A stretch of DNA of 64,000 nt from an uncultured Paracoccaceae bacterium (GTDB lineage Bacteria; Pseudomonadota; Alphaproteobacteria; Rhodobacterales; Rhodobacteraceae): contig CANLVP010000003.1 in NCBI GenBank assembly GCA_947494675.1, positions 169,791 to 233,790 on the forward strand, written 5' to 3'. A program made the position numbers and the translations under genes. The notes below the pieces were generated by a model. It was not told where the DNA came from. It searched no databases and saw nothing but the letters and a program-made list of their open reading frames with translations. Position 1 is the stretch's first letter, and each line of letters begins with the position of its first letter. Below are positions 3,243-57,089 of the stretch, piece by piece.

Positions 3243-3261
3243 GGTGGGCAGATTGCCCACC
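3243..3261. repeat. REP-like 8-3-8 hairpin between ctaC and ctaB
   Basis: A perfect inverted repeat, GGTGGGCA and TGCCCACC around a 3-base loop, fills most of the gap between the ctaC stop and the ctaB start. No T-run follows, so it is not a clear terminator. It may be a REP-type intergenic element or an mRNA processing hairpin. Confidence 0.6.
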
Positions 3262-53997: not shown

Positions 53998-56196
53998 CTA
54001 ATAAAAACTCTGCGGATCAATATCGATCGACAATCGCAAATTGCTCGGCAGTCGAAACTGTCCGGCCCAATCGGCCAGCGCTTTTTGCAAGGGCGCCGAC
54101 TTCTCGGCCTTGACCAGCAATCGCACCCGGTGCCGTCCTCTGATCCGCGCAATCGGCGCTGGTGCGGGGCCAAAGACTTGCGCCCCAATCGCGCGCAATG
54201 GGCCGTCGCGCCGTGCCATGTCTGTGCCCAGATCAAAAACCTCTTGCACATTAGGGCTGCTTAGAACGATCCCCGCCATCCGTCCGTAGGGTGGCACGCC
54301 CGCCGCCTTGCGCTCTGCCGCTTCTGCCGCCCAGAATTGTTCTTCATCGCCCGCAATGATCGCCCGGATCACCGCGTGTTCGGGCTGATAGGTCTGCATC
54401 AGCGCCTCGCCCGGTGCCTCCGCCCGGCCTGCGCGCCCGGCCACTTGGCGCATCAGTTGGAACGTCCGTTCAGCGGCACGCAAGTCCGAGCCTTGCAGCC
54501 CCAGATCGGCATCAATCACGCCAACGAGCGTCAGCTTGGGAAAGTTGTGCCCCTTCGCCACCAGTTGCGTGCCGATGATGATATCGGCCCCGCCTTCGGC
54601 AATTTCGGCGATATGCGCCTTCATCGCGCGGGCAGAGCCGTAAAGGTCACTCGACAACACAACGACCTTAGCATCGGGAAAGAGGTCTGTGACCTCCTCG
54701 CCCATACGCTCCACCCCCGGACCAACAGCTGACAACCGGTCCTCAGCCTCGCAATGGGGGCAGACGGTAGGCATCGGCTTGGTCTCGCCGCATTGGTGGC
54801 ACATCAACCGCTTGAGGAACCGGTGTTCCACCATGCGCGCATCGCAATGATCGCAGCCAATCTGGTGTCCACAGGCCCGGCATAGTGTGATCGGCGCATA
54901 GCCACGGCGGTTAAGAAAGATCAGCGATTGCTCACCCTTTTCAAGCCGCGTACGTATCGCGCCTTGTAATGTGGGCGAGACCCATTTGCCGCCCGGCAAA
55001 TCTTCGGCCCGCATGTCAATCGCGCCCATCTTGGGCATGACCGCCGGTCCAAACCGGGACGTCAGTTCTAGCCGCGCGTATTTCCCCGCCTCCACATTGG
55101 CCCAGCTTTCAAGGCTTGGCGTCGCGCTGGCCAGAACCACCTGCGCCCCGTTCAGCGAGGCGCGCAGCACCGCCATATCGCGGGCGTTATAGAGCACCCC
55201 GTCCTCTTGCTTATAGGATGTGTCGTGTTCCTCATCGACGACGATCAGCCCCAGATCGCGGTAGGGCAGAAACAGCGCAGAGCGCGCGCCAACGATCAGC
55301 TGCGCATCCCCCTGCCCCACCATGCGCCAACAGCGGCGGCGTTCGGTCGCGGTGACGCCCGAATGCCATTCCGCAGGCTTCATCCCGAACCGGGCTTCAA
55401 CCCGGTCGATGAACTCACCGGTCAAGGCGATTTCGGGCAGCAGCACCAACGCCTGCCGCCCCTTGCGCAGGCATTCCGCGACCGCCTCAAGGTAAACCTC
55501 GGTCTTGCCCGACCCGGTCACACCTTTCAGCAATGTGGTGCCATAGGTGGCCGAGCTGACAGCCTCGCGCAGCACCTTGGCCCCGGTCAGCTGGTCGGCG
55601 GTCAGCTCTTTACTGCCATAGTCAGCGTCAAGTTTTGGATAAGCGGTGTCGCGCGGCGCGTCCTCTTCGGCGACAGCCCCCAGTTTAACGAGGCCCTTGA
55701 CGACAGAGGTGCCAACCCCTGCCATCTCGGCCAGCTCTTTGAGCGTGAACGAAAGGCCGCCATAGTCGCCCAGCACCTCAAGCACTTTCGTACGTGCGCC
55801 GGTGACCCGGTCGGGTTCCTTGTCACCAAGGCGGTAAACCTTGCGCATCGACGGCGGATCACCGAGGCCCGGTGCACGCGTGGCAAGGCGCAGCATCGCT
55901 GACATCGGGGTCAGGGTATAACTGGCTGCGCGGGACAGAAACGCCATCATCTCATCACGCATCGGGGCCACGTCCAGCACCCGATAGGCCGCGCGGACCT
56001 TGGCGTAGTCCCAGTCGCCCTTGCCCGGCCCCCAGACGACGCCCATCACCTTGCGTGGCCCAAGCGGCACCTCGACAAAGGCCCCCAGAAAACAGCCGCC
56101 TTCCGGTGCTTTGTAATCCAGCACCCGATCAATCGGCTGCGTGGTCAGCACACCGATCAGGTCGCCTTCGTTGAAATGGGTCAGGGGCATGGGCAT
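53998..56196 (-). CDS. priA: Primosomal replication restart helicase PriA
   Basis: PriA rebuilds the replisome at stalled forks and D-loops. The product has the N-terminal DNA-binding region (LIGVLTTQPIDRVLDYKAP), Walker A KGVTGSGKTEVYLEAV, the DEEH box in VVDEEHDTSYKQEDG, and the zinc-binding cysteines in CRACGHQIGCDHCDAR and MCHQCGETKPMPTVCPHCEA. The C-terminal helicase half contains VAGRAGRAEAPG. The start is uncertain: ATG at 56196 gives about 732 residues, the family norm, while an ATG at 56229 would add 11. No clear ribosome site decides between them. Confidence 0.95.
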   Translation of the reverse strand: MPMPLTHFNEGDLIGVLTTQPIDRVLDYKAPEGGCFLGAFVEVPLGPRKVMGVVWGPGKGDWDYAKVRAAYRVLDVAPMRDEMMAFLSRAASYTLTPMSAMLRLATRAPGLGDPPSMRKVYRLGDKEPDRVTGARTKVLEVLGDYGGLSFTLKELAEMAGVGTSVVKGLVKLGAVAEEDAPRDTAYPKLDADYGSKELTADQLTGAKVLREAVSSATYGTTLLKGVTGSGKTEVYLEAVAECLRKGRQALVLLPEIALTGEFIDRVEARFGMKPAEWHSGVTATERRRCWRMVGQGDAQLIVGARSALFLPYRDLGLIVVDEEHDTSYKQEDGVLYNARDMAVLRASLNGAQVVLASATPSLESWANVEAGKYARLELTSRFGPAVMPKMGAIDMRAEDLPGGKWVSPTLQGAIRTRLEKGEQSLIFLNRRGYAPITLCRACGHQIGCDHCDARMVEHRFLKRLMCHQCGETKPMPTVCPHCEAEDRLSAVGPGVERMGEEVTDLFPDAKVVVLSSDLYGSARAMKAHIAEIAEGGADIIIGTQLVAKGHNFPKLTLVGVIDADLGLQGSDLRAAERTFQLMRQVAGRAGRAEAPGEALMQTYQPEHAVIRAIIAGDEEQFWAAEAAERKAAGVPPYGRMAGIVLSSPNVQEVFDLGTDMARRDGPLRAIGAQVFGPAPAPIARIRGRHRVRLLVKAEKSAPLQKALADWAGQFRLPSNLRLSIDIDPQSFY

Positions 56197-56274
56197 CCGG
56201 CTGGTGGCAGAGCAAACAGTAAATGCCATTCCAAGGGTCGCCGCAAGACGACCTGACTCGCAAACTGTGCCATA

Positions 56275-56343
56275 AGACTTTCACCGAAAGTCTGCCCCCA
56301 AATCCTCGGCGAGGATTTGCCGCCAATTTCTGTGTCAGAAATT
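56275..56343. repeat. Three 8-3-8 hairpins at an exact 25-bp period
   Basis: Perfect dyads start at 56275 (AGACTTTC and GAAAGTCT), 56300 (AAATCCTC and GAGGATTT) and 56325 (AATTTCTG and CAGAAATT). Each has a 3-base loop and is followed by a spacer close to GCCCCC. The stem sequences differ, but the architecture is identical. The array lies in the divergent gap between priA and the aldolase gene. Confidence 0.8.
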
Positions 56344-56435
56344 GCCCCACCGATGCCACACGCTCTGGGCTTTCGGACCGGCTCGTCATGCGATAAAGCC
56401 TTAGACAACATCAAACCCCTGCCCCGGAGACCCCC

Positions 56436-57089
56436 ATGAAATTTTTCGTCGACACCGCCGAAATTGACGCCATCAAAGAACTGCACGCGCTTGGCATGGT
56501 CGATGGCGTGACCACCAACCCCTCGCTCATTGCCAAATCAGGCCGCGATATCCTCGAAGTCACGCGCGAGATCTGTGACATCGTTGACGGCCCCGTCTCT
56601 GCCGAGGTTGTCGCACTCGACGCCGACACCATGCTGGCCGAAGGCCGCAAGCTTGCAAAGATCGCCGACAACATCGCCGTCAAAGTGCCGCTCACCTGGG
56701 CTGGCCTGCAAACCTGCAAGGCGCTCTCGGACGAAGGCACAATGGTCAACGTCACCCTGTGCTTCTCTGCCAATCAGGCGTTGCTCGCCGCCAAGGCCGG
56801 TGCAACCTTTATCAGCCCCTTCATCGGCCGCCTTGACGATATCAACATCGACGGGTTGGAGTTGATCGAAGATATCCGCACGATCTATGACAATTACGGC
56901 TTTGACACCCAGATCCTCGCCGCCTCAATCCGCAATGCCAACCACATGTCCGAATGTGCCAAGATCGGCGCGGATGTGGCCACCGCACCTCCGGGCGTGA
57001 TCAAGGCAATGGCGAACCACGTGCTGACCGACAAGGGCCTCGCGGGCTTTATGGCTGACGTCGAAAAGGCCGGCATCAAGATCCTGTGA
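56436..57089 (+). CDS. Transaldolase-like aldolase (Fsa/TalC group)
   Basis: A 217-residue class I aldolase of the small transaldolase or fructose-6-phosphate aldolase group. The N-terminus [16 protein letters not shown] and [15 protein letters not shown] are the family hallmark, and the Schiff-base lysine lies in [13 protein letters not shown]. In this size class sequence alone does not settle transaldolase against Fsa activity. It is the first gene of the plus-strand pair with the 178-residue unknown, whose GTG overlaps this stop. Confidence 0.93.

Follow-up and report, generated by a model that had tools for sequence, protein, structure and literature searches.

A three-hairpin array between priA and an aldolase gene is one copy of a dispersed Rhodobacteraceae repeat that elsewhere adjoins the gene of a small protein

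Why should three perfect hairpins of unlike sequence stand at an even step in the gap between two divergent genes? The question is raised by a window of 64,000 nucleotides from an uncultured Paracoccaceae bacterium (GCA_947494675.1, contig CANLVP010000003.1), in which the gap between priA and a gene for fructose-6-phosphate aldolase holds such an array. A first-pass annotation of the window had proposed that structure or helical phase is constrained while the sequence of the stems is free, and that the array may lie in the 5' leader of one of the two genes. The features of the locus are as follows.

53998..56190, minus strand: priA (primosomal protein N'), with the conserved start at 56190 rather than at 56229
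56218..56250, minus strand: conserved block, a possible priA promoter judging by conservation in the genus
56275..56344, no strand assigned: three-hairpin array, reading A-B-C on the plus strand, a solo copy without the small protein gene
56275..56293, no strand assigned: hairpin A, AGACTTTC-acc-GAAAGTCT, 8 bp with a 3-nt loop
56299..56319, no strand assigned: hairpin B, CAAATCCTC-ggc-GAGGATTTG, 9 bp with a 3-nt loop
56324..56344, no strand assigned: hairpin C, CAATTTCTG-tgt-CAGAAATTG, 9 bp with a 3-nt loop
56345..56351, plus strand: CCCCACC tail 3' of hairpin C
56370..56397, plus strand: conserved block, a possible aldolase promoter judging by conservation in the genus
56436..57089, plus strand: gene for fructose-6-phosphate aldolase or TalC-type transaldolase

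The three hairpins lie where the annotation had placed them, with arms of 8, 9 and 9 bp and centres 25 nt apart. The ninth, outer pair of hairpin A, present in most other copies, is A.G in the window copy. Hairpin B is the most conserved of the three units of the family, and its stem extends to 10 bp if the loop is taken as 1 nt; hairpin C is the most variable, with an innermost pair that is G-C here and T-A in the orthologues of two species of the same genus (G003 and G005). In general form the units read A = (C)AGACTTTC-nnn-GAAAGTCT(G), B = CAAATCCTC-nnn-GAGGATTTG and C = CAATTTCTG-nnn-CAGAAATTG. The six-base GCC spacers first described are better read as 4-nt spacers (CCCC and CCGC) between 9-bp hairpins, which makes the step 9+3+9+4 = 25. 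These hairpins are real and chance explains them poorly: thirty simulated windows, with dinucleotide steps kept by block, held a mean of 1.7 single 8-3-8 hairpins against the 5 observed, and none held a pair at a step of 25. A scan of 464 kb of the window's genome, picked independently of the repeat apart from the window itself, returned the window array and one unrelated doublet, and three simulations gave 0, 0 and 1 arrays. RNA folding of the array region gave z = -3.3 on the plus strand and -1.2 on the minus strand.

The promoter-like blocks separate the array from each gene, and it probably sits between the two promoters and outside both leaders. The longest priA frame begins at 56229, and genus-wide conservation favours the start at 56190. 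The array is present in three of six species of the genus, namely the window's genome (G000), G003 and G005; the other three (G001, G002 and G004) keep the gene pair, and no hairpin of at least 7 bp was found in the 330 nt 5' of their aldolase gene. The Rfam 15 covariance models found no match in 55900-56700 at E up to 5. We have rejected a 5' leader or riboswitch on these three grounds, and the proposed leader role for either gene is not supported; the copy in this gap is likely a tolerated passenger rather than a leader switch.

The array is one copy of a dispersed repeat. With the gap as blastn query, 4 of 61 genomes gave matches: the window's genome, G003, G005 and G036, the last of another genus. 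A covariance model (R1) built from 12 copies matched at E <= 0.001 in 39 of 295 genomes of the family, taken as one genome per genus, and in four of the six species of the window's genus, with 9 places in the window's genome (both strands merged), 19 in G005 and 16 in G003. The periodic arrangement, for which a search of other genomes had been suggested, thus does occur elsewhere. Full copies keep the order A-B-C. The stems of one array are indeed unlike each other, as had been noticed, but their sequence is not free: the same three stem types recur in fixed order. A scan for the B palindrome found at least 114 stretches, 44 of them with a second hairpin in step; the 29 named stretches among these 44 belong to Rhodobacteraceae or close kin (for example Yoonia, Loktanella, Litoreibacter, Harenicola, Rhodophyticola, a Ruegeria and a Rhodobacter), one being labelled only Alphaproteobacteria. 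Among the matches listed, the palindrome was solitary in stretches named as other phyla and in three Sulfitobacter stretches. Spread of the array by phages or plasmids was considered and rejected, as blastn found no match in phage or plasmid collections and an array was found on none of 49 viral contigs in which the B palindrome occurs.

What the copies hold in common is pairing, and the stems are under constraint to keep it. In 53 triple arrays, picked by eye from 176 matches with one strand each and three hairpins required, 1395 of 1431 stem cells (97.5%) are Watson-Crick, and 168 changes are double-sided. The covariation that the annotation had put forward as a check on structural constraint is therefore present among copies. 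The variable pairs A9, B9, C4, C7 and C9 are complementary in 48-53 of the 53 arrays; a site read by a protein as double helix would not need its pairing kept. Between the window copy and the copy at the trp locus of the same genome, two pairs of hairpin C are different, each with a compensating change. The remaining stem cells are G.T (7), A.C (9) and other (20); the outer hairpins were positioned by best pairing, which favours pairs but does not favour G.T over A.C. Structured RNA on one strand would be expected to tolerate G.U above A.C, and such an excess was not found (7 vs 9 of 1431, small numbers), which speaks against selection confined to a single RNA strand. From these sequence comparisons we infer that the constraint acts on hairpins of DNA, or on hairpins required on both strands, and not on RNA from one strand.

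On a shorter time scale, 18 orthologous arrays of G003 and G005 show 8 changes in 767 stem positions against 163 in 7082 flanking positions; without one decayed array, these become 4 of 713 and 127 of 6682 (p = 0.007). The decayed array, in G003, has one-sided changes and a 25-nt deletion. No double-sided change occurred among these 18, so that compensation is unseen on that time scale. Helical phase, the other constraint that had been proposed, is unlikely, as the distance between centres shifts (24.5 with a 2-nt loop, 22-24 in some genera) whereas a 4-nt spacer is the commonest value (44 and 39 of 53 at the two spacers).

Comparison of neighbours across genera identified the gap between trpF and trpB as a recurrent array site. 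A chain of at least two perfect hairpins (arms of at least 6) occupies this gap in 11 of 30 genomes, a survey that was hand-picked and enriched for array carriers, and a small open frame precedes the hairpins in all 11. The window's genome has gene and array there (a gap of 414 nt), whereas G001, G002 and G004 have neither (77-95 nt). The sequence of the hairpins varies by genus (G306 has five palindromes of other sequence), while the site and the perfect pairing stay constant. In six genera (G036, G116, G174, G183, G249 and G261) the small frame continues into the array; in L407, L408, L414 and L426 it reads through the hairpins, and the repeat there encodes a variable C-terminal tail.

The frame encodes a protein of about 75 residues, which occurs in 123 of the 295 family genomes, often as more than one copy; in a class-wide draw of 385 genomes it was found in five, three of them Rhodobacteraceae. 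Homologues numbered 111 with a single query and 1866 with a profile. In ten pairs tested dN was lower than dS, with ratios of about 0.05-0.47, indicating purifying selection on the gene. No Pfam domain was found in the homologues among the matches listed; Pfam, NCBIfam, PHROGs and PADLOC gave no convincing match to the partner protein, and no HUH, DDE or other catalytic signature was seen by eye in the alignment. The matches of a profile search of PDB were nearly all norovirus capsid chains (best E 0.003), a similarity that we judged to be chance and discarded. Many homologues are named N-(5'-phosphoribosyl)anthranilate isomerase, and one aspartate aminotransferase (L405 1501-1728, that is G000:C3:660597-660824, and P0001-P0162). 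A TrpF domain was not found in the small proteins scanned, and the isomerase name was probably carried over from the adjoining trpF.

Gene and hairpins are closely linked. A perfect hairpin lies within 150 nt 3' of the conserved domain in all 38 gene copies examined (the best 30 family matches and 8 genus matches), compared with 101 of 1184 control windows from the same loci; a chain of at least two hairpins follows in 33 of the 38 and in 2 of the 1184. Two further copies have hairpins, namely L506 on a Tropicibacter plasmid (two, overlapping the gene end) and L444 in G084 (one). Five relatives have none 3' of the gene: L448, the second copy of G323 in the same family; L445 in G340, of another family of the class; and L456, L507 and L508. 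These five are mostly distant, and L446 is a doubtful homologue. Hairpins thus mark a subfamily, mainly of Rhodobacteraceae. The gene is present in 38 of 39 genera with arrays and in 85 of 256 others (p = 1.9e-15), a co-occurrence that is not independent of the adjacency, since in some genera the R1 match is the gene-linked array, and genera are themselves non-independent. The sole array genus without the gene (G078) has an apparent remnant frame beside its hairpin.

A second gene copy of the window's genome, and the only copy of G004, is accompanied by another hairpin, CGATTATTCGNCGAATAATCG. With gene-linked sites included and up to three mismatches allowed, it occurs at 18 places in G000, 27 in G004, 22 in G003, 23 in G005 and 5 in G001; none was found in G002, the only species of the genus without the gene, and the reversed pattern used as control gave none in any of the six. 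This dispersal test was designed after the link between gene and hairpin had been seen, and its outcome was not firmly expected. Six of the seven copies looked at (e.g. L449-L455) are single hairpins. A strict pairing of gene and hairpin family is argued against by G005 and G003, which hold R1 arrays together with 23 and 22 CGATTATTCG places, yet have hairpins of other types beside both of their own gene copies. One G005 array (C1:687822) has a stem in common with the trp-linked hairpin of that genome.

Alternatively, the arrays may be hairpins of a generic kind that protect gene ends or act there as spacers, their perfection maintained by selection or by template switching within palindromes; the small gene would then be no more than one frequent neighbour. 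The rarity of stem substitutions relative to flanks in G003 and G005 would fit, as would the perfect hairpins of quite different sequence that other genera have at the same trpF-trpB position. It would not lead one to expect, however, that all 38 gene copies adjoin hairpins or that the hairpin linked to the second gene copy is dispersed, and the one-sided changes and deletion accumulated in the decayed G003 copy indicate that palindromes are not automatically repaired; since such changes persist, we rejected automatic repair as the sole cause. We consider generic hairpins improbable.

The placement of copies brings in two further alternatives. Among the 91 arrays for which both neighbours were called, 29 start 0-9 nt 3' of a stop codon, compared with 9.1 expected from random placement in the same gaps; the other 55 of 146 were dropped (26 lay in a called ORF and 29 at locus edges), and the gene calls at the loci come from a simple ORF caller, with some coding labels wrong. 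Several arrays of the window's genome lie inside operons, between nuoJ and nuoK, between trpF and trpB, and, within a cluster of branched-chain type, between two genes for ABC ATPases, the first of this type and the second recognized by eye, with a Shine-Dalgarno-like sequence directly 3' of the array. Further arrays of this genome follow a class-II aldolase gene or stand in convergent gaps next to lysS and phoX. Intrinsic terminators might be suspected from hairpins near stop codons, of which a number stand between convergent genes, but arrays also occur within operons, a T run was found after none of the 44 arrays examined, where the tail is C-rich, and a terminator scan had no match at the window array; this explanation is very improbable and was rejected. 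C is the commonest base (38-47%) at each of the first eight positions 3' of hairpin C across the 53 arrays.

The same positions bear on the possibility of an RNA regulon, in which the small protein would be an RNA-binding regulator and the arrays its binding sites, on its own mRNA and on others such as those of nuo, liv and trp, tuning stability or translation. Operon positions and proximity to stop codons leave this proposal some weight, and the liv array has orthologues in G000, G001, G003 and G005. PMC12306157 reports that translation is lowered by REP elements lying no more than 15 nt from a stop codon. Against a regulon stand the lack of a G.U excess in stems (small numbers), the position of the window copy in a divergent gap, presence that varies among species of one genus, and mixed orientation relative to the nearest upstream gene (C-B-A in 15 and A-B-C in 9 of the 24 scored among the 53). 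A strand-specific orientation was rejected on the last count. We regard an RNA regulon as unlikely, though less so than generic hairpins.

The explanation we favour, at a probability of about 0.58, takes the window array for a lone member of the dispersed repeat, whose hairpins are likely bound, as folded nucleic acid, by the small protein, which would spread or maintain the copies. A relative of the window copy in the same genome stands directly 3' of the gene for the protein of about 75 residues; the protein would bind such hairpins in folded form; and binding would lead to spread or maintenance of copies, as is thought for RAYT with REP elements. Both the binding and a past or present movement of copies are inferred from sequence patterns. 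It counts against this explanation that no catalytic signature by which the protein would move DNA was seen. A clean empty site with target duplication was not found; some species have syntenic places without array or gene-plus-array, with flanks too diverged to define the ends. The window by itself could not reveal a repeat tied elsewhere to a protein gene: of the first-pass interpretation, constrained structure and periodicity in other genomes hold, the leader role is not supported, and helical phase is unlikely.

The repeat is multi-copy, intergenic, hairpin-forming and biased towards gene ends, as expected of dispersed extragenic palindromes that are REP-like in the broad sense. RAYT, or TnpA-REP, is a Y1 HUH protein. 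The corresponding domain (PF01797) was found in 2 of 30 genomes (G012 and G020) and in none of the 16 array carriers among them, with a positive control in E. coli. The features in common with REP/RAYT systems, REPINs and BIMEs included, are short extragenic palindromes that are dispersed, often near stop codons, and come in doublets or clusters, a partner gene flanked by its own palindromes, and families that differ between species (for REP, partly after PMC3733652 and PMC12306157). The REP superfamilies GTAG and CGTC have a palindrome tagged at one end, as given in PMC3733652; within 8 nt of 106 array ends, GTAG, CTAC, CGTC or GACG gave 11 word matches. REP/RAYT proper was rejected because PF01797 is absent from the 16 carriers tested and the tags are rare at array ends. 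The arrays further differ in their perfect stems of 9-10 bp with loops of 2-4 nt and mostly 4-nt spacers, in having two or three different hairpins in fixed order, and in a partner of about 75 residues without a Y1 match. REP-like elements with a non-RAYT partner are thus the best reading, REP-like in organization and not a REP.

Two other systems invite comparison. BIMEs and REP arrays of E. coli occur inside operons (malE-malF) and, like the arrays here, form hairpin clusters that are intercistronic and 3'-terminal; the units here differ in being three distinct palindromes at a near-constant step, and we know of no sequence relation between the two. In type III toxin-antitoxin loci, too, a small gene lies beside tandem structured repeats. 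Here, by contrast, the repeats lie downstream, form simple hairpins whose sequences differ, and also occur dispersed at places that lack the gene.

A stronger proposal, which we put forward tentatively, is a new class of selfish or domesticated element, in which a protein of about 75 residues would recognize hairpins by their pairing and seed solo hairpins and arrays at gene ends. One to four cognate hairpins would lie 3' of its own gene, and every copy of the gene would give rise to a separate hairpin family; the one further gene copy tested (CGATTATTCGNCGAATAATCG) bears out this expectation. Among the literature matches listed, from a search that covered papers open without subscription, we found no description of such a repeat or protein in Rhodobacterales. 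If true, the proposal would provide a REP-like system without a RAYT transposase, with a partner small enough for quick study, and a natural series of protein-hairpin pairs in which to ask how pairing, rather than sequence, is recognized. It also adds elements that lie within operons (nuo, liv and trp) and can be tested for an effect on expression. The naming of a small protein without TrpF similarity as phosphoribosylanthranilate isomerase, probably by adjacency, points to widespread misannotation.

Distant relatives of the protein are found without hairpins on mobile replicons, namely an IMG/VR isolate provirus (L456), a Clavibacter plasmid (L507) and a Streptomyces plasmid (L508); the Clavibacter copy lies near a gene with a TraM domain and a MobF relaxase. 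Separately, GGTGGGCANNTTGCCCACC palindromes at 3243-3261 of the window and at 18934-18982 of L219 possibly represent another dispersed repeat of the window's genome, unlike the arrays described here.
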